A DNA stretch of 46,864 bases from an uncultured Pelagibacteraceae bacterium. Its GTDB lineage: Bacteria; Pseudomonadota; Alphaproteobacteria; Pelagibacterales; Pelagibacteraceae. This document shows, one piece after another, positions 21,005 to 33,648 of the stretch (positions within the stretch are counted from its first letter, which is position 1; each line of letters opens with the position of its first letter). The translations under genes were made by a program, and so were the position numbers. The stretch covers positions 1-46,864 of the forward strand of contig CABYHH010000007.1 of NCBI GenBank assembly GCA_902518835.1. The letters are read 5' to 3'. Under the pieces are notes generated by a model. It did not search any database. It had not been told where the DNA came from and saw only the letters and a program-made list of their open reading frames with translations.

Positions 21005-21153
21005 CTAAAATATTTTCCAACCTTTCTCTTTTAAATTTATGACTTGAGCCCTTCCTTGAACTCCATACCCTAGGACTCCAACAACTTCTCTCTTTTTTTA
21101 AATATTGATATTTTTTTAATATCACTGTCATAATAACAGATTTTTTTTTTCAT
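21005..21153 (-). pseudogene. Remnant of a ketol-acid reductoisomerase-like N-terminus
   Basis: Reading the minus strand, an ATG at 21153, seven bases after the upstream GT2 stop, begins M-K-K-K-I-C-Y-Y-D-S-D-I, the usual start of KARI-like proteins (V-Y-Y-D-x-D). After a frame change near 21086-21100, positions 21085-21005 read V-V-G-V-L-G-Y-G-V-Q-G-R-A-Q and then V-I-N-L-K-E-K-G-W-K, matching the KARI dinucleotide-binding motif G-Y-G-x-Q-G-x-A-x-x-x-N-L. A TAG ends this frame and nothing homologous follows, so more than 80% of the gene is gone. The original was clearly cotranscribed with the GT2 gene. Paralogues of KARI occur in sugar-acid cassettes, so a sugar enzyme rather than true ilvC is likely; that part is inference. 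Confidence 0.8.
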
Positions 21154-21159
21154 ATTTTA

Positions 21160-21840
21160 TTATCCAATACCCTTCCAGGTATTTCCATCAGGTGTATAAT
21201 GATGATAAACAGAATGACTTGGGTCATAGAGAAAGTTCATATTGTTTTTTCTAATTTCTATGGCCCAATATCTATCTTCTTTACCAGATAAATTCTCATC
21301 AAATTTAAATTTAAGGAGTGTTTCTTTTTTATAGAATGAAAAAGCATTATGGAGAAAGTATCTATTTTCCATTGAGGAAAACATATTCTCTTCTTTTTTG
21401 TCCCCAAAATGTTCCCATATATATCGACTCGTTATCCTTTTTCCATCGATAACTGGAATTTGTTTTCCAAATACTGCTGAAAACTTTTTTAAACTCTCAA
21501 TCAATAAGCCGTGGTCTAAGTCTTTAATGACACAATGACTCGATATTATCATTAGATTATCATGCTTAGCTAACTCGACCCCTTTATTTAGAGCTTTTCC
21601 CGGTGTATAGTCTTTAATATTTTTAATACTAATATCACAATAATTAGACAATTCATTATTTGAAAAATTTGGATTAATTCTAAAATTTCTGGCAATCTCA
21701 ATTGTTCTATCATTAGAATTATTATCAATAATTAATATCTCTGGTTTATAAAAATTATCTATTACAGATTGGATTGTGTGGCCAACCCATCTTTCTTCAT
21801 TTTTTGTTCTTAATAATATTGAAAATTGGTTTTTGGTCAT
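21160..21840 (-). CDS. Glycosyltransferase family 2 (GT-A), short form
   Basis: The 226-residue protein has the GT2 start I-L-L-R-T-K-N-E-E-R-W-V-G, then I-L-I-I-D-N-N-S-N-D-R-T and P-G-K-A-L-N-K-G. In place of the DxD it shows I-S-S-H-C-V, followed by G-K-E-D-R-Y-W-A, and it ends H-H-Y-T-P-D-G-N-T-W-K-G-I-G. This ending recurs in a GT2 group from sugar-acid loci as far as I can recall, so I take the protein as complete rather than truncated despite its small size. Its downstream partner is only a remnant now. The S-S-H-C variant means metal binding may differ from classical GT-A enzymes. Confidence 0.82.
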   Translation of the reverse strand: MTKNQFSILLRTKNEERWVGHTIQSVIDNFYKPEILIIDNNSNDRTIEIARNFRINPNFSNNELSNYCDISIKNIKDYTPGKALNKGVELAKHDNLMIISSHCVIKDLDHGLLIESLKKFSAVFGKQIPVIDGKRITSRYIWEHFGDKKEENMFSSMENRYFLHNAFSFYKKETLLKFKFDENLSGKEDRYWAIEIRKNNMNFLYDPSHSVYHHYTPDGNTWKGIG

Positions 21841-21910
21841 TATTATTATTTAAGTCAATTGTAAATTATTACAACTAGAGAGCTAATGTTATATATATAT
21901 TTATTTTTAG

Positions 21911-22217
21911 AACAATAACATTTTGTACATAACTCCAATAAATTACTTATATTGTGTCACAAATGAGCTTAAGAAATATGAGACCATCACTCATAAACCG
22001 GATAATTATTAAAAAAACTCTAATATCTGTTTGATCAACATCTGTTCAACTTAAACTAATAATATAGACATGTAGTGTTAGAAAAAATTCAATCAAAATT
22101 TTATCTCTTACAAAAGATATGAAAATAATTAATGACCTACCATCAACAGCTGAGCTTGTTTTTGGTCTTATGATTGTACTTTCGAGAAAAATATTAGACT
22201 TTCAAAATATAAATCGG
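21911..22217 (+). pseudogene. Remnant of a D-2-hydroxyacid dehydrogenase
   Basis: The 448-base gap between divergent genes holds a broken dehydrogenase. The clearest part, positions 22089-22202, reads S-I-K-I-L-S-L-T-K-D-M then L-P-S-T-A-E-L-V-F-G-L-M-I-V-L-S-R-K, the family's T-A-E-x-x-x-G-L-x-L-x-x-R segment. It aligns with K-I-F-S-L...S-P-A-E-L-T-F in the intact fusion protein just downstream. Upstream in another frame, 22037-22072 reads N-I-C-S-T-stop-T-N-N-I-D-M, matching the preceding T-x-T-G-x-x-H-I-D motif. Around 21911-22006, N-N-I-L-Y-I-T-P-I-N-Y-L may be the N-terminus (less sure). Stops and frame changes prevent expression, and the NAD-binding and catalytic parts are missing. Confidence 0.78.
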
Positions 22218-22288
22218 ACTATTTGCCTTTCGCAAATAAACTTATTAAAAAATTTACAATTTTATAGTTTTTGATAAACATTTGATTA

Positions 22289-24001
22289 GTGATTGGAAAT
22301 AAAAAAGTTTTAATAAATATTCTCGCTAGATCAGGATCTACAGGAATTAAAAATAAAAATGTAGCAGATTTAAACGGAAAACCTGTTTTATGGTATTCAA
22401 TTACAGAGGCGCTAAAAAGTAAATATGCTGATGACATATGTTTTTCTACAGACAGTCAAGAGTATGCTGATTTAGCCAAAGATACAACTGGCTTAGATAT
22501 TCCTTTTTTAAGAAACCCAAAATATGCCAAAAAAAACTCGACAGCAGCTGATGCATCAAGATGGACAACTCTAACTTTTGAAAAACATTCAGGTAAAAAA
22601 TATGATTTTATTGTTGATTTTATGAATTCAAATCCATTCAAAATTGTTGATGACTTAGATGCTTGTATAGAGATTTTATATAAAAATAAAAAAGCTGACA
22701 CTGTTGTGGCTGTTAACCGAGTTTGGGATGGGCATCCCAATAGAATTAAACAAATTGTTAATGGAGAAATTCAAGATTGGCCTGGTACTAAAGAAAAATT
22801 AGAGTCAATGAGACAAGAGCTTAGACCACCAGCTTATATCAGGAGTGGTTCTGTTTATGCAATGAAAAGACATGTGTTAATAGATGAGATTAATAGACGA
22901 GGAAAAATTAGTCTTCCATACATTATGCCTGATGAAAGAGTTTGTAATTTAGATGAACCAAAAGATTTATTCACAGCAAGAGCCATGATGGCTCAAAGAA
23001 GTCTAAGTTATAAAAAAGATTCTATTAAATCAAAAAAATTAAAAATTTTAGTCACCTCAAAAATTAGTGATCTAAAAGAAATTCTAGAGATTGTTAATAA
23101 TATTGGAGAAGTAAAAATATTAAATAATATAACAAGGTTACAATTAAAAAAAATAATTAATTTTTATGATGTCCTTCTATGCTCAACAAATATAAAAATA
23201 GATCAAGAGTTATTTAAAAAATTTAAAAAGATAAAAATAAAATATATAATTACACCTTCAGTTGGAATTGATCATCTAGATAAGCCATTTTTAAAAAAAA
23301 AGAAAATTAAAATTTTTTCATTAGTAAATTCTCATAATGATACAAAAAATATTTTTTCACCTGCTGAACTAACTTTTGCCCATATCCTAAATATTTCAAA
23401 AAATTTCTTAGGTGCCGTTTCATCTGTCAAAAATGGAAAATGGCAACCAAATAATCACATAGGTTTTGAATTAGATGGTAAGGTCATCGGAATAATTGGA
23501 ATGGGTGCAGTTGGTACTATCCTCGCAAAATATTGTATATCATTTGGTTTAAAAATCATTGCCTACGATCCATATAAAATAATAAATGATGTGCATATTA
23601 ATCAAGTAAGCGATTTAGATCAATTATTAACTAGTTCTGACATAATCTCCGTAAACGTATCGGGCATTAAAGAAAATACAAATTTGATTTCTGAGTATCA
23701 GTTTAAGTTAATGAAAAAAAATGCAATTTTAATAAATACTTCTAGAGGAAACACAGTGAACATTGAAGCTCTAATCAATAATATTGAGAAAATGAAAATT
23801 GCAGGTGCGGGAATTGACGTGATACAAAATGAACATGAATTTCCAAAAAATTATTCAAAGAAATTACTAAATAGGATGCTAAAATTACAAAAACAAAATA
23901 AGTTATTTATTACTCCTCATATTGCTGGCAGCACTTATGAAGCGAGAGTAAAAAGATTAAAATATGTTTTAAAATATTTTTTAAAAGAATTAAAAAAATG
24001 A
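22289..24001 (+). CDS. Fusion: CMP-sugar cytidylyltransferase + D-2-hydroxyacid dehydrogenase
   Basis: One 570-residue protein with two enzymes. Residues 4-235 are an acylneuraminate/Kdo cytidylyltransferase: I-L-A-R-S-G-S-T-G-I-K-N-K-N-V (CTP loop), F-S-T-D-S, D-F-M-N-S-N-P-F-K, and L-D222-E-P-K-D (metal Asp). Residues 250-570 are a D-2-hydroxyacid dehydrogenase: P-A-E-L near 359, G-M-G-A-V-G 404-409, Y-D-P after the second strand, T-S-R486-G, and T-P-H544-I-A-G; the usual E-P motif reads N-E-H-E-F-P. The start is GTG at 22289, since TGA lies six bases upstream in frame. It is the first gene of a four-gene operon. It probably oxidises or reduces a sugar acid and activates it with CMP; the substrate is unknown. 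Confidence 0.87.
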   Translation: MIGNKKVLINILARSGSTGIKNKNVADLNGKPVLWYSITEALKSKYADDICFSTDSQEYADLAKDTTGLDIPFLRNPKYAKKNSTAADASRWTTLTFEKHSGKKYDFIVDFMNSNPFKIVDDLDACIEILYKNKKADTVVAVNRVWDGHPNRIKQIVNGEIQDWPGTKEKLESMRQELRPPAYIRSGSVYAMKRHVLIDEINRRGKISLPYIMPDERVCNLDEPKDLFTARAMMAQRSLSYKKDSIKSKKLKILVTSKISDLKEILEIVNNIGEVKILNNITRLQLKKIINFYDVLLCSTNIKIDQELFKKFKKIKIKYIITPSVGIDHLDKPFLKKKKIKIFSLVNSHNDTKNIFSPAELTFAHILNISKNFLGAVSSVKNGKWQPNNHIGFELDGKVIGIIGMGAVGTILAKYCISFGLKIIAYDPYKIINDVHINQVSDLDQLLTSSDIISVNVSGIKENTNLISEYQFKLMKKNAILINTSRGNTVNIEALINNIEKMKIAGAGIDVIQNEHEFPKNYSKKLLNRMLKLQKQNKLFITPHIAGSTYEARVKRLKYVLKYFLKELKK

Positions 24002-25134
24002 AAATTCTTGATGTCCAGGGATATTCTTTATCCTCCGGGTTTGGCAATAAATCATATCTTGGTTATTTAAATAACAATAAGTTAAAAAATATTGGAGTGA
24101 TTGAAATAGTTACAAATAAGAAAATTATTGGATATGGAGAAACATATTCAGGTGTTTATGCTGGAGAATTGATTAAACCAATAATCGATTTTTTAAAAAC
24201 AAACATTGTGAACAAAAAATTAGAAAATATTGACGATATCAAAAAAATAAATAGTAAAATTTTATCAAAACCCTTCATATCTAGGAATGGAATCATTCCA
24301 TCAGTATACAGTGCAATTAATATAGCCTTATATGATGCGCTATCGCAACATAAAGAAATCCCATTGTATAAGTTACTCTCAAAAAAAAGCGCAAAAAAAG
24401 TGAGAGTGTACGCGAGCAATGGTTCATCTACATTTTCACCGAGAGAAATAAAAGAGGATGTTAACAAAATATTAGATCTTGGTTTTAATTCATTTAAAAT
24501 GAGGATCGGACATCAGGAGTGGGGTCAAGATCTAAAAAGAGTTGAGACAGCAAGAGCAATTCTAGAAGATAAAAATTTGATGCTAGATGCAATAATGGGC
24601 TCAATTTACCCCCCATGGGATTATGCCAAAGCAGATAAAAAATTAAGACAAATAAATAAATTTAATCCTTTGTGGATTGAAGAGCCACTAATTCCAAATG
24701 ACTATTATGGATACCAACGATTAAATAAAAAATATCCTATTGCAGGTGGAGAGGCTTTAAATAATTTATCTGATTATGGAATTTATAAAGAATTTAATTG
24801 TGTGGACTATATACAACCCGATGTAACTAATGTTGGAGGTTATGATGTTTTAAAAATGATAGCTCAATTATTCAAAAAAAAAAAAATTGCTATTCATGTT
24901 TGGGGAAGTAAAATAGCCTTTTTAGCCAATCTTCATTACTGCTTATCCAGTAGTGTGAATTTTCTCGAATATCCGATGATGAATCTTGATATTGATAAAG
25001 AAATAATCAAAGAAAGTCTCAAGATTGAAGGTAACTATATACATCCACCAGATGAACCTGGTCTTGGAGTTCATATTTCTTCATCAGTAAAAAGGAAATA
25101 TAAGATTAAGAAAATGTCAAATTATCTTTTATGA
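23998..25134 (+). CDS. Enolase-superfamily (mandelate racemase/muconate-lactonizing type) sugar-acid dehydratase or epimerase
   Basis: The 378-residue protein has the capping domain then the (beta/alpha)8 barrel. F-K167-M-R169 is at the end of strand 2. Metal ligands are D197 (M-L-D-A), E228 (W-I-E-E-P) and E252 (A-G-G-E-A). A His-Asp pair is H300 (A-I-H-V-W) with D275 (Q-P-D-V). This matches the mandelate racemase subgroup, which removes a proton alpha to a carboxylate; most such bacterial enzymes dehydrate aldonates to 2-keto-3-deoxy acids. The second residue of the K-x-K motif is Arg. ATGA overlaps join it to both neighbours. A run of 13 A (24874-24886) codes for four lysines shortly before H300. 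Confidence 0.86.
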   Translation: MKILDVQGYSLSSGFGNKSYLGYLNNNKLKNIGVIEIVTNKKIIGYGETYSGVYAGELIKPIIDFLKTNIVNKKLENIDDIKKINSKILSKPFISRNGIIPSVYSAINIALYDALSQHKEIPLYKLLSKKSAKKVRVYASNGSSTFSPREIKEDVNKILDLGFNSFKMRIGHQEWGQDLKRVETARAILEDKNLMLDAIMGSIYPPWDYAKADKKLRQINKFNPLWIEEPLIPNDYYGYQRLNKKYPIAGGEALNNLSDYGIYKEFNCVDYIQPDVTNVGGYDVLKMIAQLFKKKKIAIHVWGSKIAFLANLHYCLSSSVNFLEYPMMNLDIDKEIIKESLKIEGNYIHPPDEPGLGVHISSSVKRKYKIKKMSNYLL

Positions 25135-26081
25135 TTCATATATATTGCGATTTAATTAAAAGGACAAAAATAAATAATTTACCAAAATGGGGTAAAATTA
25201 AAATAAAATCACAATTTCCAGGAATTAAATTTGTTTATTCTATTAAAAAAGAAAATAAAAAAATATTAGTATATTTTGGAGATTTGATCACAAAAGAAAA
25301 AATAGAGCTAATGCCAAATTTAAAATGGATACACTTTTCATCTTCTGGTACCAACAGGGCTCAATTAGAAATAGTGAAAAAAAGGAAAATAGTTATAACA
25401 AACAGTCCTGATGGATTTGTAAATTCTCTTGCATCACTGGGCTTAGCACATATTTTTTCTTTTGCTCGAGGCTTGCATTTTGTAAATAATTTAAGAAATA
25501 AAAAAAAATTAAATAGGAATGAAATTGATAGATATTATTATTTCATTGATGATTTAAGAGAAAAAAATATACTTATAGCAGGCTTTGGTAAGGTAGGAAA
25601 GCTGATTGCAAACGTGCTTAAGATAATGGGTGCAAACATACATGTAATGGTGAAAAATAATAAAAAAACAAATTCTAATAATTTTAATTTTTATTATTCA
25701 AATAAAATTTCAAGATTTATTCATAAGATGGATTATGTAGTAAATCTTCTACCATTAAATAATGATACTTTAAAATTTTTTGATATTAATCTTTTTAAAA
25801 AAATGAAAAAAAATTCATATTTTATTTCTTTAGGTAGAGGTCAAACAGTAGTTGAGAAAGATTTAATAAAAGCGTTAAAAAAGAAATTAATATTGGGTGC
25901 TGCATTAGATGTTTTTGAAAAAGAACCTCTGTCTAAAAAGTCAACATTATTTAAGTTGAAAAATGTAATTTTAACTCCTCACATTGGTAATATTAATCAT
26001 AAATATTGGAAATATGAAATTGACTTATTTTCAAAAAAACTTAAAATTTTTTTAGATAAATTAGATTATGACAAAAAATGA
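25131..26081 (+). CDS. D-2-hydroxyacid dehydrogenase (NAD/NADP-dependent)
   Basis: A second, free-standing dehydrogenase of the same superfamily, 316 residues. It has L-I-A-G-F-G-K-V-G (dinucleotide loop), V-N-L-L-P-L-N, S-L-G-R-G-Q (catalytic Arg), L-D-V-F-E-K-E-P (catalytic Glu) and T-P-H-I-G-N (catalytic His), so the full catalytic set is present. Unlike the fused copy, the E-P motif is canonical. The T-A-E segment is replaced by N-S-L-A-S-L-G-L-A. The ATG overlaps the enolase-superfamily stop (ATGA) and its 3' end overlaps the DAHPS-like gene by 14 bases. It may interconvert a 2-keto acid and a 2-hydroxy acid in the same pathway. Confidence 0.88.
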   Translation: MIHIYCDLIKRTKINNLPKWGKIKIKSQFPGIKFVYSIKKENKKILVYFGDLITKEKIELMPNLKWIHFSSSGTNRAQLEIVKKRKIVITNSPDGFVNSLASLGLAHIFSFARGLHFVNNLRNKKKLNRNEIDRYYYFIDDLREKNILIAGFGKVGKLIANVLKIMGANIHVMVKNNKKTNSNNFNFYYSNKISRFIHKMDYVVNLLPLNNDTLKFFDINLFKKMKKNSYFISLGRGQTVVEKDLIKALKKKLILGAALDVFEKEPLSKKSTLFKLKNVILTPHIGNINHKYWKYEIDLFSKKLKIFLDKLDYDKK

Positions 26082-26922
26082 ATATATAGAAAGTTTGATT
26101 AAAGCCGATAAAATTAAACATACAGTTGATAAAAGTATAAACTTTCAATTTCAAATAGGATCAAAAACATTAGGTGAGGAAAAAGTTTTAATTGCCGGTC
26201 CATGTTCAGTTGAGTCAAAAGATATGATCATAGATGTTTCTTTAAAATTAAAAGAAATTGGTGTTGATGCCCTAAGAGGTGGTGCTTATAAACCTTGCAC
26301 ATATCCTGTGAGAAAATCTGTAAATGGTTGGAAAGAAGGGTTGCAGAAAGAAGGTCTTGAATATTTATTGAATGCAAAAGATAAATCTGGCCTGCCTATT
26401 GTTACAGAGGTTATGGATGCCTCGAAAATAAATTTAGTATCAGAATATGCGGATATTTTTCAGGTAGGTACAAGAAATTTCCAAAACTACACGCTTCTAG
26501 ACGAACTTGGAAAACAAGATAAGCCCATCCTATTAAAAAGAGGCACGTGGGGAACTTTAGATGAGATATTGGGAGCATGTGAAAGAATTATTGAAGGTGG
26601 AAACACTAAAATTGCAATATGTTTAAGGGGTGTTGTGGGCATGCCAAGCTATAGGCATATTTTTCCATCAACAAGATGGGCTCCAGATTTAATGATGATT
26701 CCAGCACTTAAGGAATTTACAAATATCCCAATTATATATGATCCAAGCCATGCTACTGGTTATAGAAATTTTGTTTTACCAATCTCAAAAGCTGCAATGG
26801 CACTAAATGTGGATGGATTAATTGTTGAATGCCATCCAAAACCTGAGAAATCTATAAGCGACCCTGATCAGGCTATAACATTTAATAATTTAAAAAAAAT
26901 AAAAGAACTCTTCAAGAATTAA
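26068..26922 (+). CDS. DAHP-synthase-like (class I-beta) PEP aldolase with altered aldose-phosphate site
   Basis: Family members condense phosphoenolpyruvate with an aldose phosphate to make a 3-deoxy-ulosonate. The 284-residue protein shows I-A-G-P-C46-S-V-E-S (metal Cys), L-R-G-G-A-Y-K75-P, T-E-V-M-D, I-F-Q-V-G-T-R-N, L-L-K-R-G-T, D-P-S-H-A and I-V-E-C-H-P, the frame of Thermotoga/Bacillus-type DAHP synthase without ACT or chorismate mutase domains. The segment that binds the erythrose-4-phosphate phosphate is normally K-P-R-T-S-P; here it is K-P-C77-T-Y-P. The substrate is therefore likely different. It is the last gene of the operon, so it probably serves glycan rather than aromatic synthesis; the latter is not excluded. 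Confidence 0.85.
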   Translation: MTKNEYIESLIKADKIKHTVDKSINFQFQIGSKTLGEEKVLIAGPCSVESKDMIIDVSLKLKEIGVDALRGGAYKPCTYPVRKSVNGWKEGLQKEGLEYLLNAKDKSGLPIVTEVMDASKINLVSEYADIFQVGTRNFQNYTLLDELGKQDKPILLKRGTWGTLDEILGACERIIEGGNTKIAICLRGVVGMPSYRHIFPSTRWAPDLMMIPALKEFTNIPIIYDPSHATGYRNFVLPISKAAMALNVDGLIVECHPKPEKSISDPDQAITFNNLKKIKELFKN

Positions 26923-27121
26923 CCTTAATTAATTCAGCTTTTGTATTTATATATCTATTCTTCCATCTAACTCCCACGGACCTGATTTAAAATTTTTTTA
27001 CTTTTCATATCGAAAACTTACAAATATTTGCAACGTTATTTGCGGTAGCCTTTATCATTTTTTTTGCTAGAGAAATATTTCCCATATTATTCCATCCAAT
27101 CTGAACTATGAGTTTAATATC
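26923..27121 (-). pseudogene. Remnant of a NeuB-like sialic/nonulosonic acid synthase N-terminus
   Basis: On the minus strand, 27121-27005 reads D-I-K-L-I-V-Q-I-G-W-N-N-M-G, then I-S-L-A-K-K-M-I-K-A and A-N-I-C-K-F. This matches the start of a NeuB subgroup (E-I-G-W-N-H-M-G-D ... L-A-K-K-M-I ... C-K-F-Q). After a TGA, a second frame gives S-G-P-W-E-L-D-G-R, and a third gives T-K-A-E-L-I-K, both in the order expected of that subgroup. There is no start codon, at least two frame changes and two stops, and the fragment ends where the convergent DAHPS-like gene ends. Only about 70 of some 340 residues survive. It differs from the intact neuB at 30530-31600, so it is not a recent duplicate. Confidence 0.8.
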
Positions 27122-27141
27122 TCTATTTTTTTATTATTTAC

Positions 27142-28866
27142 TTAAAGTTTAATTATATGGTCACAAAATGATAAATTTTCCATTTTATGCGAAACTATTA
27201 CCATAGTTTTTAAACCTTTATACGAACTAATAGTTTTCATAATTAATTTTTCACTTTTAGAGTCCAAAGAAGTTGTAGCTTCATCAAAAACCAAAATTTC
27301 TGGATTTTGATAGAACGCCCTTGCTATTCCTATTCTTTGTCTCTGCCCTCCAGAAATATTTAGTCCACTCTCTCCTAAAATAGATTTTGTTTTTTTTGGG
27401 TAATCATTAACAAAATCAAATATATCTGCCATTTTTAATGAATTAATGACCAATTCTTTATCTATTTTTTCTTCTTTAAGACCAAAAGCAACATTTTTTT
27501 CAATTGTATCATTTAGAAAATGAATTACTTGACCCACATATCCAAATTTTTTTCTCCAACTTGTAAGACAATTGTTAATATTTTGATCATCTGCTCTCAA
27601 AATATTTTTAGAACCATCTAAATTTTGTAATCCCATAATAATATCAATAAGTGTACTTTTTCCTACACCACTTTGTCCAAAAATTCCTACAGATTGATTT
27701 TTAAAAATTTCAATTGATATATTTTTCAAAATTTCCTTTTGGGTATCAGGATAAGAGAAAGAATCTATATTTAAGAAAATTTTATTTTTAAATTCAATTT
27801 TTTGTGAGTCTTGAATTGTGTCAATTTTATCATTCTCTAAATATTTCAAAATTTTTTTAATTGAAACATCACCAAACTTGACTGTTTGTGAAGAAGATAT
27901 TATTTTTGAAATGGAAGGAAAAATTTTTATTGAAGCTGCAACAATTATACCAATGACAAAAATTATATAATCTTGGGAATTTAAATTAGACATACTTAAG
28001 GAAATTATAATTAAAAAAATTATACAAATTGCTATAAATTCCATTATTGATCTTGGCATTTCAACATAAACACTTTTAGGGATATTTGTTTTAGTCAATT
28101 CTTGATTGTGAAAATTATACTTATTAACAAAGAAATGTTCTACGCCTAAAATTTTAATTTCTTTGATAGAACTAAAAATATCTCTTAAAGTATTAATTTT
28201 TTTAGCAAAATGAACTTGTCTTTTTTTTCCTAATTTAACTAACTGTTTTTTCGTAAAAAATAATATTAAAATTCCAGTTATTGAAAAAAGGACAATTATA
28301 ATAAAACCTTTTAACTTTATTGAATATAAAACAATTAGTGAAACAAATGTAAAAATTATGACTTCAGTGAATATTTGTATATAGGCTACATAAATTGAAA
28401 TAATTTGATTTATTTCCTCAACGAGATCCGAAATCAGTGCAGAAGAATTTTTTTGTGTGTGAAAGTTTAAATTTTTATTAATTATTTTTGTTATGATATT
28501 TGATGACAAGTTTTGATGAAATGAAAATAAAAAATACTGCTGATAATATGAGGTAAACAATGTAAACAAGAATTTAATAAGAAAAAAGCTAATGATTATT
28601 AATGATGAATAAAGTATAATTTTAAACCTAAAGGTTTCAAATTCTCCCAAAAAATCTGTATTTTCAATAAATGAATAGTACTTAAGTCCAATATCATAAT
28701 TTTTAAGTAATCCTTCATCTAAAAGAATTGCTATTAAAGGTATCACAATTCCTACCCCCAAAGTCTCTAAGATTGTTAAAATTAAAAGTAGAAAAATTAA
28801 AAAATAAAATTTTTTTCGCTCTGCTCCTTGTGTAATCGCATATAATTTAAAAAAGTTTGTTATCAT
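27142..28866 (-). CDS. ABC exporter half-transporter (MsbA/PglK type), probable glycolipid flippase
   Basis: Membrane domain fused to ATPase, 574 residues. Hydrophobic helices lie near residues 20-48, 82-105, 158-182, 186-206, 272-292 and 300-315. The nucleotide-binding domain has Walker A G397-Q-S-G-V-G-K-S-T, signature I-S-G-G-Q-R-Q-R, Walker B I-L-V-F-D-E-A, and the H-loop V-S-H near the end. Homodimers of this type flip lipid A or undecaprenyl-linked oligosaccharides. No Wzx was recognised in the window, so this could be the exporter for the glycan. It is the last gene of its block; the gap downstream holds only the NeuB-like remnant. Confidence 0.9.
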   Translation of the reverse strand: MITNFFKLYAITQGAERKKFYFLIFLLLILTILETLGVGIVIPLIAILLDEGLLKNYDIGLKYYSFIENTDFLGEFETFRFKIILYSSLIIISFFLIKFLFTLFTSYYQQYFLFSFHQNLSSNIITKIINKNLNFHTQKNSSALISDLVEEINQIISIYVAYIQIFTEVIIFTFVSLIVLYSIKLKGFIIIVLFSITGILILFFTKKQLVKLGKKRQVHFAKKINTLRDIFSSIKEIKILGVEHFFVNKYNFHNQELTKTNIPKSVYVEMPRSIMEFIAICIIFLIIISLSMSNLNSQDYIIFVIGIIVAASIKIFPSISKIISSSQTVKFGDVSIKKILKYLENDKIDTIQDSQKIEFKNKIFLNIDSFSYPDTQKEILKNISIEIFKNQSVGIFGQSGVGKSTLIDIIMGLQNLDGSKNILRADDQNINNCLTSWRKKFGYVGQVIHFLNDTIEKNVAFGLKEEKIDKELVINSLKMADIFDFVNDYPKKTKSILGESGLNISGGQRQRIGIARAFYQNPEILVFDEATTSLDSKSEKLIMKTISSYKGLKTMVIVSHKMENLSFCDHIIKL

Positions 28867-30529: not shown

Positions 30530-31600
30530 TTAATATTTCTTAACATCCTTCATCCTAATCACATCACCATTTTTGATATTCTTAATAATTTTTTTACCTA
30601 ATATATCTTTAGCCTTATATGGAGGAAGAGCATTTAATGGACAAGGTCTCAAAAATATCAAATCAGATCTATTTATTCTTGAGCCCTTTTTAATATTTTT
30701 ATTAACTCTTATTGCGCGTTTTTGAACTATAGCGGGTTGGATTTCATTTTTTTCAATAACTTTTTTTCCATTACCTAGTGATTTTTCTAACTCTCTTGCT
30801 CTATTAATCATTTCCTTCCATGTTTCAGGATTCATTGAAAATTTATGATCTGGTCCATCCAAGCTATTGTCAATAGTAAAATGTTTTTCAATCATTCTGG
30901 CACCTAGTGTAATCGCTCCTAAAACTGTACTATGGCCACTTGTATGATCACTAAGTCCTAATATAACATTTGGAAATTTTTTTTTATATAACTTTAAAAC
31001 ATTTAAATTGATAAAATTAAAATTATCTTTTGAATTTGTATAATTGGTGTTGCATTGCATAAGGCAAATTTGCTTATTATTTTTTTTCAAAATTTTAATT
31101 GCCATTTCAACTTCTTTAAAATTGGATGCACCTGATGCTAGTATCACGGGTTTTTTTTTTTTTGATATATATTTTAGAATATCATGCCAGGTTATATCAC
31201 CAGATCCAATTTTATAAACGGATACATATGGATCTATATGATCCACCATATCAAAATCATATGGGCTAGTAAAAAAATCAATACCTACTTTATCACATTC
31301 TTTTTTTAATATTGGTGTCCAAGATAAGTTGATTGATGCATCTTTATAAACTTCAAAAACGCTTTTTTTCCATTTAGCTTGATGGGATAATTTACCCTTA
31401 AGGGATTTAAAACCAAAATCGCTTACTATCGTCTCTGCAGAAAAATGTTGAAATTTTGCAGCATCTGCTCCTGCAGCTTTAGCAGCATGAATTAATTCTT
31501 TAGCTCTCTTAAGTGATCCATCATGGTTCGCTGCAATATCAGCAATAAAATAAGTTTTTGATTTGTTCGAGATAGTTTTTTTATTTATCTTAAATTTCAT
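30530..31600 (-). CDS. neuB: Nonulosonic acid synthase (NeuB/PseI/LegI family)
   Basis: Condenses PEP with a six-carbon N-acyl amino sugar to a nine-carbon nonulosonic acid. In the 356-residue protein, F-I-A-D-I-A-A-N-H-D-G-S and D-A-A-K-F-Q-H-F begin the barrel. Y-K-I-G-S-G-D, I-L-A-S-G-A-S, G-L-S-D-H-T, I-E-K-H-F-T and D-H-K-F-S-M-N-P-E follow, and the SAF (antifreeze-like) domain has R-A-I-R-V-N-K-N-I-K-K-G. A TTG at 31606 gives two more residues; the ATG at 31600 is preferred. The start A-D-I-A-A-N-H-D-G-S resembles PseI/legionaminate types more than sialic acid types, but I cannot tell which. A run of 13 T (31151-31163) encodes four lysines. Confidence 0.91.
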   Translation of the reverse strand: MKFKINKKTISNKSKTYFIADIAANHDGSLKRAKELIHAAKAAGADAAKFQHFSAETIVSDFGFKSLKGKLSHQAKWKKSVFEVYKDASINLSWTPILKKECDKVGIDFFTSPYDFDMVDHIDPYVSVYKIGSGDITWHDILKYISKKKKPVILASGASNFKEVEMAIKILKKNNKQICLMQCNTNYTNSKDNFNFINLNVLKLYKKKFPNVILGLSDHTSGHSTVLGAITLGARMIEKHFTIDNSLDGPDHKFSMNPETWKEMINRARELEKSLGNGKKVIEKNEIQPAIVQKRAIRVNKNIKKGSRINRSDLIFLRPCPLNALPPYKAKDILGKKIIKNIKNGDVIRMKDVKKY

Positions 31601-31602
31601 AA

Positions 31603-33648
31603 TCAATTTAATCTTGAAAACGTAGATTGAGAAACTGGTCCTTTAAGAATAGATTTTGATTTTATTTGTTTTTTTTTAAATTTTGATATTTTTTTTATAA
31701 TAATTTCAAATTCTTTTAAATAATTTAAAATTATTTTTCGAGTGTGTGCAGTGCTAACATAAATTGTATTAGTAGCCAAAATATTCTTCTTCAACATTTC
31801 TTGTGTCAAATATGTTTTCAAAACTTGATGATCATTATCAAAAGTAAATGTTGGCATAGCATTTAATCCTGAAATATTAATATTTATATTATATTTTTCA
31901 CAAATCTCTTTCCATTTCTTTTTTATAAATTCTCCAGAGCGATTAATTTTGTTCCATGGTTTTGTTTTTTCCATTATTTCTATGGTTTTTAAAGCTGCCG
32001 AAACTCCTATTTTTTCAGTCCAAAAAGTACTGCTGACAAATGTGTTTTTTGCTTTTTTCATAATTTTATTTTTTCCCAAAACTGCTGTTATTCCATAACC
32101 ATTTCCAATTGCTTTTCCAAATGTTGCTATGTCAGGATTAACCCCATATTGTAAATGTAGACCACCAAGATTATATCTAAAACCTGTTGTACATTCATCA
32201 AATATAAGAATTATTTTATTATCATTACAAATTTTTCTAATTTTTTTTAAAAAATTATTTTCTGGTTTAAAATTTCTAGAAACTTCCATTATTAAAGAAG
32301 ATATTTTATTTTTATTATTTTTAATAATATTTATTAGTTCATTGATTTCGTTATATTTAAAAGCTAGGATGCTATTTTTTAATGATTTGCTTACACCCTC
32401 CGTCTTAATCCCTTTTAATAAATGTTGATCTACTTTTTTATCAACTAAATTATTTGCTAAATACCAATCATTCCATCCGTGATAACCACAAAAGATCACT
32501 AAATCTTTTTTTGTAAAAGCTCTTGATAATCTAATTGCGATTGAATTAGCGTCGGCGCCAGTTCTTGCAAATTTAACCATATTAGACCACTTATGAATTT
32601 TAATTAGTTTTTCTGCTAAAATTATTTCATCAGGATTGTTTAATGTTGTAAGATTACCGGACTTTATTGCTTTAGAAACAGACTTATTTACTTGAGAATT
32701 GTTGTATCCTAGAATATTTGTTCCAACTCCCATAAAACTCAAGTCCAAATATTTTTTTTTATCTAAACCCCAAATTTTACAACCTTCTGATTTGGTATAA
32801 TAGGTCGGCCAATTCTCTGGTAGAAAAATCTCTGGTCTTTTAGATAAAAGCATATTACCTCCTGGAATTACTTTTTTTGCTCGTTGCCAATATTTAAAAT
32901 TTTTTGACATTAATGACCCTTGATTATTAATAATATCTTTATTTATTTTTGATAAATCCTTATTTTTTTTTAAAATATTTATCATATCATTCATAGTAAA
33001 ATCTATATTTTGTATTTTTTTAAGAAGTATTTTTATAAGTTTAAGATCTTTTGATTCATCAACTGATAACCTAAAATTTGATAAATTGTTTGATAATTTA
33101 AAATTAAATTTTTTCAATTTTTTACTTCGCTTAATAAAAGGGGTTACGTGCTCTTTATCATGCGAAGAAGTTGCATTTTTATAAGCTAATTCAAGAGATC
33201 TAAAATTAAAAACTTCTACATCAAACCCATCAGGATAAGTATATTCTAAAGTATTACTTACATAATCAAATTTTGTTTTAAATTTTTTATTATCTATTTT
33301 ATTAATAAATTTATCAATAATTCTATGATCAACAAAAGGACAATCACCAGTTATTCTTATTATGATTTTCGATTTATCTTTTTTCGCAATTTTATAATAC
33401 CTATTAAGTACATTTTCCTCACTTCCACGAAAAACTTTTACTTTACTATTTTTAAATAATTTACAAAGCTTGTTATCTTCAGATTTAGTTGTTGTGGCTA
33501 AATAAAAACTATTGATTTTTTTGGATCTAAATAATCTTAAAAATAAAAATTCAATTAAAGAATAATCCTTGTTTATTTTTTCTAAAACTTTATTTGGATA
33601 CCTTATGGAACCACATCTTGCTTGAACTATTACAGTTATATTTTCCAT
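31603..33648 (-). CDS. Fusion: SpsF-type cytidylyltransferase + glutamate-1-semialdehyde aminotransferase-like protein
   Basis: A 681-residue bifunctional protein. Residues 1-235 form an SpsF/NeuA-like CMP-sugar transferase (V-I-V-Q-A-R-C-G-S-I-R-Y-P-N-K-V, R-I-T-G-D102-C-P-F-V-D107, N-F-R-L-S-V-D). Residues 247-681 form a class III PLP aminotransferase of the GSAM type: K-V-I-P-G-G, R-T-G-A-D-A-N, G-Y-H-G-W-N-D, I-F-D484-E-C-T-T-G-F-R and T-F-G-K512-A-I-G-N-G with the Schiff-base Lys. An internal Met at 247 (base 32910) would begin a normal aminotransferase, so the fusion is end to end. Between neuB and an aldo/keto reductase, it probably supplies the sugar amino group and CMP-activates the nonulosonic acid. 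Confidence 0.89.
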   Translation of the reverse strand: MENITVIVQARCGSIRYPNKVLEKINKDYSLIEFLFLRLFRSKKINSFYLATTTKSEDNKLCKLFKNSKVKVFRGSEENVLNRYYKIAKKDKSKIIIRITGDCPFVDHRIIDKFINKIDNKKFKTKFDYVSNTLEYTYPDGFDVEVFNFRSLELAYKNATSSHDKEHVTPFIKRSKKLKKFNFKLSNNLSNFRLSVDESKDLKLIKILLKKIQNIDFTMNDMINILKKNKDLSKINKDIINNQGSLMSKNFKYWQRAKKVIPGGNMLLSKRPEIFLPENWPTYYTKSEGCKIWGLDKKKYLDLSFMGVGTNILGYNNSQVNKSVSKAIKSGNLTTLNNPDEIILAEKLIKIHKWSNMVKFARTGADANSIAIRLSRAFTKKDLVIFCGYHGWNDWYLANNLVDKKVDQHLLKGIKTEGVSKSLKNSILAFKYNEINELINIIKNNKNKISSLIMEVSRNFKPENNFLKKIRKICNDNKIILIFDECTTGFRYNLGGLHLQYGVNPDIATFGKAIGNGYGITAVLGKNKIMKKAKNTFVSSTFWTEKIGVSAALKTIEIMEKTKPWNKINRSGEFIKKKWKEICEKYNININISGLNAMPTFTFDNDHQVLKTYLTQEMLKKNILATNTIYVSTAHTRKIILNYLKEFEIIIKKISKFKKKQIKSKSILKGPVSQSTFSRLN

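Follow-up and report, generated by a model that had tools for sequence, protein, structure and literature searches.

A remnant of a gene for a NeuB-family synthase, belonging to a clade without the SAF domain, lies between a DAHP-synthase-like (DAHPS-like) gene and an ABC transporter gene in the stretch of 46,864 nucleotides analyzed here in full (hereafter the window). It was probably left behind when an operon ending in the DAHPS-like synthase displaced the NeuB gene, a cassette-type swap of synthases that phages probably aided. Exchange of NeuB-type and DAHPS-type synthases before one family of GT2 glycosyltransferases was observed in viral contigs, and we infer it for the chromosome of the window. 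The draft assembly comprises 42 contigs, with an estimated completeness of about 86%. The features concerned are as follows.

21160 to 21840, minus strand: intact GT2 glycosyltransferase of a clade that elsewhere stands directly after a NeuB-subgroup or DAHPS-like gene (GT2 trees, neighbour tallies).
21914 to 22193, plus strand: second relic, the N-terminal ~126 residues of a D-2-hydroxyacid dehydrogenase (2HADH), in the gap 21841-22288, with stops and frameshifts.
22289 to 24001, plus strand: fused CMP-ulosonate-type cytidylyltransferase (N-terminal, PF02348) and 2HADH (C-terminal, PF02826); 77% to L034.
23998 to 25134, plus strand: enolase-superfamily (MR_MLE) sugar-acid dehydratase-like protein (Pfam); 76% to L034, 40% to the L033 homologue.
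25131 to 26081, plus strand: 2HADH (Pfam); 73% to L034, 39% to the L033 homologue.
26068 to 26922, plus strand: DAHP-synthase-like PEP-dependent synthase with a DAHP_synth_1 domain (PF00793, E 2.8e-55); its 3' end abuts the NeuB relic.
26924 to 27118, minus strand: relic of a NeuB-family synthase of the SAF-less clade, the opening ~64 codons out of ~270, spread over three frames; it has no start codon and contains an in-frame TGA and two small insertions.
27142 to 28866, minus strand: ABC transporter (Pfam), the same-strand upstream neighbour of the relic.
30530 to 31606, minus strand: intact long NeuB with SAF domain, of another clade than the relic.

Both strands of the gap between the DAHPS-like and ABC transporter genes were translated. 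Read on its minus strand, 26923-27121 gives IKLIVQIGWNNMGNISLAKKMIKATANNVANICKFSI at 27118-27008, then FKSGPWELDGRIDI at ~26991-26950 and KAELIK at ~26942-26925; one frame consists of KNRDIKLIVQIGWNNMGNISLAKKMIKATANNVANICKFSI, a stop and KVKK, a second of KNFKSGPWELDGRIDI, and TKAELIK is back in the first. The peptides quoted in the sequence-only reading as landmarks of a NeuB are thus present and in order. No ATG, GTG or TTG occurs between the in-frame stop upstream and IGWN, and alignment of the relic with four intact genes revealed two insertions, of 1 base and of 2 bases, and a TGA stop in frame. The NeuB-like signal ends at ~26925, 2-5 bases off the DAHPS-like stop codon (26920-26922), which agrees with the truncation point placed earlier at the 3' end of that gene. 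Profile search of six-frame peptides from the whole window found no NeuB-like continuation on the minus strand beneath the DAHPS-like gene. The 3' remainder was also sought beyond the operon, in the gap 21841-22288, and was not found; the 2HADH relic lies there instead.

Statistical support came from a profile built from 24 intact relatives only and run against those six-frame peptides. It matched 27008-27130 (minus strand) with 42.9 bits (E 4.9e-12, profile positions 3-39) and 26950-26997 (minus strand) with 10.7 bits (E 0.03, profile positions 43-58), so that the gap, translated across frames, gives a colinear match at consecutive positions of a NeuB-family profile. Dinucleotide shuffling of the gap, repeated 1,000 times, gave a top score of 10.1 bits. 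By blastn, 26934-27100 matched an intact SAR11/Pelagibacter gene (G525, in L100) at 73% over 167 bp (E 8e-18), with weaker DNA matches to the NeuB-subgroup genes of G574 and G562. The query of a first genome search was a peptide pieced together from the gap, which makes the match of that search to the gap circular; L062_3546, a non-NeuB ORF caught by the motif filter, was left out of the profile, the tree and the shuffle test. Together, these results confirm a real relic of the NeuB family at this position, as had been claimed. The stretch is short and AT-rich and the genome is a draft, yet chance similarity, or a misassembly resembling a relic, is highly improbable given the gulf between 42.9 bits and the best shuffle, the DNA match of 73% and the damage within the stretch itself.

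Phylogenetic analysis placed the relic within the SAF-less NeuB clade (25 rows, support 100), nearest to L100 and L026, and the local intact neuB among the long NeuBs. The relic is 58% identical to L100, its best match within the clade, versus 21% to the local gene, and the earlier proposal that its subgroup is not that of the intact copy holds. Decay of a duplicated local neuB has next to no probability as the origin of the relic: the two belong to one superfamily and lie 3.4 kb apart, but a recent or decayed copy is refuted by the tree split and by the identities. Intact clade members are ~264-284 aa long, and the two that were scanned carry the NeuB TIM-barrel (PF03102) over its curated cut-off (174 and 196 bits) with no match to the SAF domain, which the local long NeuB has. 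The 64-aa relic alone gave no match in a Pfam scan and scored 17.3 bits against the NeuB/PseI equivalog (cut-off 399.65), being too short a fragment to be judged by it. Among solved structures, PDB 6NCS (290 aa, an N-acetylneuraminic acid synthetase by its deposited name) lies closest to the intact clade, followed by 8H2C (pseudaminic acid synthase), 1VLI (SpsE) and 1XUU (SiaC/NeuB). The further suggestion that the locus once coded for another nonulosonic acid goes beyond the evidence, as the products may even be identical; since the intact relatives lack SAF, the sugar need not be nine-carbon. Elsewhere in the window, 31603-33648 (minus strand) encodes a 681-aa protein in which a cytidylyltransferase is fused to a class III aminotransferase.

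The DAHPS-like protein scored 261.1 bits against the TIGR01361 equivalog, below the cut-off of 267.75. The KPRTS motif, aligned from 4c1k/1zco, reads KPCTY in the window protein, KPATF in L034 and KPLTF in the chromosomal SAR11 set, the Arg being lost. In true DAHP synthases this Arg helps hold the phosphate of the acceptor, erythrose-4-phosphate. Judged from the motif, its loss would fit an unphosphorylated acceptor, like that of bacterial NeuB enzymes. A separate class II DAHPS elsewhere in the genome is the housekeeping enzyme, and the window gene is therefore not the shikimate enzyme. Its nearest relative is viral (L128, 72%), with L034 more distant. SAR11 chromosomes also carry a second DAHPS-like clade (L055-L066), usually near a cytidylyltransferase and often near a larger GT2 protein; at L055 the checked neighbour is a Gfo/Idh/MocA oxidoreductase.

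The closest relative of the plus-strand operon is L034 (single-cell genome AG-365-O06), which has the same four genes in the order fusion–MR_MLE–2HADH–DAHPS-like, with a small GT2 directly after. A parallel operon at L033/L035 comprises a cytidylyltransferase, one further gene, MR_MLE, 2HADH, a NeuB-subgroup gene and GT2, the NeuB gene occupying the position that the DAHPS-like gene has in L034. In eight SAR11-associated loci a NeuB-subgroup gene stands directly before a GT2 of the clade of the window GT2, and the ninth other member of the clade, that of L034, comes after the DAHPS-like gene. The couplet of NeuB subgroup and GT2 is common but not universal, because other NeuB-subgroup genes of the genus sit in other contexts. 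Gene order thus suggests that the DAHPS-like enzyme fills the operon slot of the NeuB subgroup, before the same GT2 family; given the shared slot, the change may have been an exchange of synthases more than of sugars. The contig of L033/L035 (NZIO01000013.1, 11.9 kb) is filed as Candidatus Pelagibacter MED605. It shares a run of genes, most of them 72-88% identical, with the viral contig L128, and it is probably phage DNA.

To extend the comparison to viruses, IMG/VR, whose records are uncultivated, was searched with the DAHPS-like protein, which yielded 12 relatives of 61-71% identity, and with the GT2 alignment, which yielded 65 loci. The gene directly upstream of the GT2 belonged to the NeuB subgroup in 47 of the 65 viral loci, was DAHPS-like in 10, 2HADH in one and something else in seven; no locus held both synthases. 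A 2HADH and a cytidylyltransferase were both nearby in 44 of the 47 NeuB-subgroup loci and in all 10 DAHPS-like ones, and L128-L204 bear cassettes of the form 2HADH–CMP-transferase–NeuB subgroup or DAHPS-like–GT2. Scanning viral contigs for the NeuB subgroup with a single sequence returned nothing, whereas an alignment-based scan returned many. INPHARED (GenBank phages) gave no match to the NeuB subgroup or the GT2 at E 1e-30; its DAHPS matches, at about 40% identity or less and mostly from short unannotated records, look like ordinary bacterial DAHPS and were rejected as cassette members.

The exchange itself is seen between L171 (DAHPS-like) and L195 (NeuB subgroup). The two agree at 97.0% across 6,303 bp downstream and at 87% across 1,453 bp upstream, and the synthase sets them apart; L195 adds one small gene before the NeuB-subgroup gene and one after the GT2. 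The GT2s of this pair are 67% identical and the CMP-transferases 80%, so the product may have changed as well. L194 does not differ from L195 across the locus, and L193-L195 are therefore treated as roughly a single phage. In a second pair, L140 (DAHPS-like) and L035 (NeuB subgroup), the flanks are 77-82% identical in nucleotides and the GT2s 78%. A T4-type gp23 and a terminase are encoded on the contigs of both L171 and L194; gp23 or terminase was detected in 13 of the 49 tested contigs, including 11 of 11 that reach at least 100 kb. In the GT2 tree the NeuB-subgroup and DAHPS-like labels are intermingled, with 8 changes (shuffled mean 10.3); strongly supported branches are few, and those force only 2 label changes. 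L171 also encodes, at 1238-2690, a second, distant DAHPS/KdsA-like protein (24%) behind a cytidylyltransferase-like one.

Around the operon of the window, the 2HADH relic best matches cassette 2HADHs in viral/phage contigs (64% over 44 aa, E 4e-13) and is also near those of the same cassette type in SAR11 genomes. Both relics lack their 3' ends, on the side facing the DAHPS operon, as expected if the operon replaced the segment between them. Since the 2HADH relic lies on the plus strand between the operon and the GT2 at 21160, either the immediate ancestor had something other than a simple NeuB/GT2 couplet here, or at least two events occurred. Alternatively, this relic may have arrived with the plus-strand operon, because many viral cassettes have a 2HADH ahead of the cytidylyltransferase. 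A possible third relic, resembling the N-terminus of ketol-acid reductoisomerase (KARI_N, Pfam E 1e-4, across a frameshift), occupies ~21010-21153 on the minus strand. The ABC transporter is likely the former operon neighbour of the NeuB relic, and at L100 an ABC transporter is found two genes upstream of the closest intact NeuB-subgroup gene. A close relative of the transporter, sought as a guide to the ancestral neighbour, was not found in the family sample, where the best other match reached 35%. Across 399 Pelagibacter genomes, none of the matches listed spans the junction of relic and transporter, most covering the ABC ATPase part only and a few the NeuB part only. We found no close strain whose NeuB is intact at the window locus, and a search for direct repeats at the breakpoints gave only weak AT-rich matches.

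In the most likely account, a SAF-less NeuB-type gene once followed the ABC transporter on the minus strand, the plus-strand operon (22289-26922) displaced its last three quarters, and the GT2 at 21160 was its former partner. Judged from their families, both synthases would be PEP-dependent TIM-barrel aldol enzymes, sharing one slot in phage and SAR11 cassettes. The synthase would condense PEP with an aldose to a 3-deoxy-ulosonic acid, the cytidylyltransferase would use CTP to form its CMP derivative, and the small GT2 would place the activated sugar acid onto a surface glycan. Recombination would swap the synthase, probably with the help of T4-type phages carrying both versions. The relic lies on the strand opposite the operon and a plus-strand 2HADH relic intervenes, so this was no clean one-gene swap in place. 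A broader version, to which we give about an even chance, regards NeuB-type and DAHPS-type synthases as interchangeable modules of one mobile CMP-ulosonate cassette that SAR11 has in common with T4-type marine phages; the two enzyme families would supply one glycosyltransferase family with an identical or almost identical sugar acid and would have been swapped repeatedly, with the relic as a chromosomal scar.

Alternatively, the relic could be debris unlinked to the operon: the NeuB gene decayed independently in a turbulent surface-polysaccharide island, and the DAHPS operon came later without replacing its function. The opposite strands, the presence of at least two further relics close by (2HADH and KARI_N-like) and the rapid divergence and rearrangement of SAR11 hypervariable region 2 (PMC2217521) favor such a history. 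It is nonetheless unlikely, considering that the relic ends only a few bases from the DAHPS stop, that the conserved partner GT2 is still present, and that the two synthases are mutually exclusive before this GT2 in the 65 viral loci. A further question concerns the product and can be compatible with replacement: the NeuB and DAHPS enzymes may yield different ulosonic acids, altering the surface glycan, e.g., under phage pressure. We regard such a change of sugar as possible, at somewhat less than an even chance. The enzyme families differ, GT2 and CMP-transferase diverge alongside the synthase in L171/L195, and the host recognition cluster of pelagimyophages contains glycosyltransferase/LPS genes (PMC7029224). 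On the other hand, GT2s of both versions are intermingled in the tree, the L140/L035 GT2 stays 78% identical across the swap, and both versions come with the same kinds of 2HADH and CMP-transferase genes.

The pseudogene itself is ordinary, but it led to a natural experiment in phage genomes that are 97% alike beside the site and differ in the family of synthase feeding one glycosyltransferase. This makes it testable whether NeuB-type and DAHPS-type enzymes can replace one another in one pathway, what the unnamed sugar acid of SAR11 and its phages is, and whether surface-sugar chemistry is carried into SAR11 hypervariable regions by phages. The literature searched contained neither a description of the cassette nor a report joining NeuB, nonulosonic acid and SAR11.

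Among known systems, SAR11 hypervariable region 2 is similar as a rearranging island of cell-surface genes, and pseudogenes, sialic acid and N-acetylneuraminate all go unmentioned in its description (PMC2217521). The pelagimyophage cluster resembles the present cassettes in bringing surface-sugar genes onto T4-type marine phages, whereas the four-gene cassette with either synthase, and the exchange between them, are absent from the consulted part of its account (PMC7029224). Type I DAHP synthases (PDB 4C1K, 1ZCO, 1RZM) match the DAHPS-like protein over almost its full length; the window enzyme differs in its altered KPRTS motif, in a score just under the equivalog cut-off and in having a CMP-transferase, not the shikimate pathway, as neighbour. 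With the NeuB/SpsE family (PF03102), the intact relatives of the relic share the TIM-barrel domain and colinear alignments, while the clade, of which the window copy is a fragment, is set apart by a length of ~270 aa without SAF and by its IGWN and GPWxxDGR signatures.
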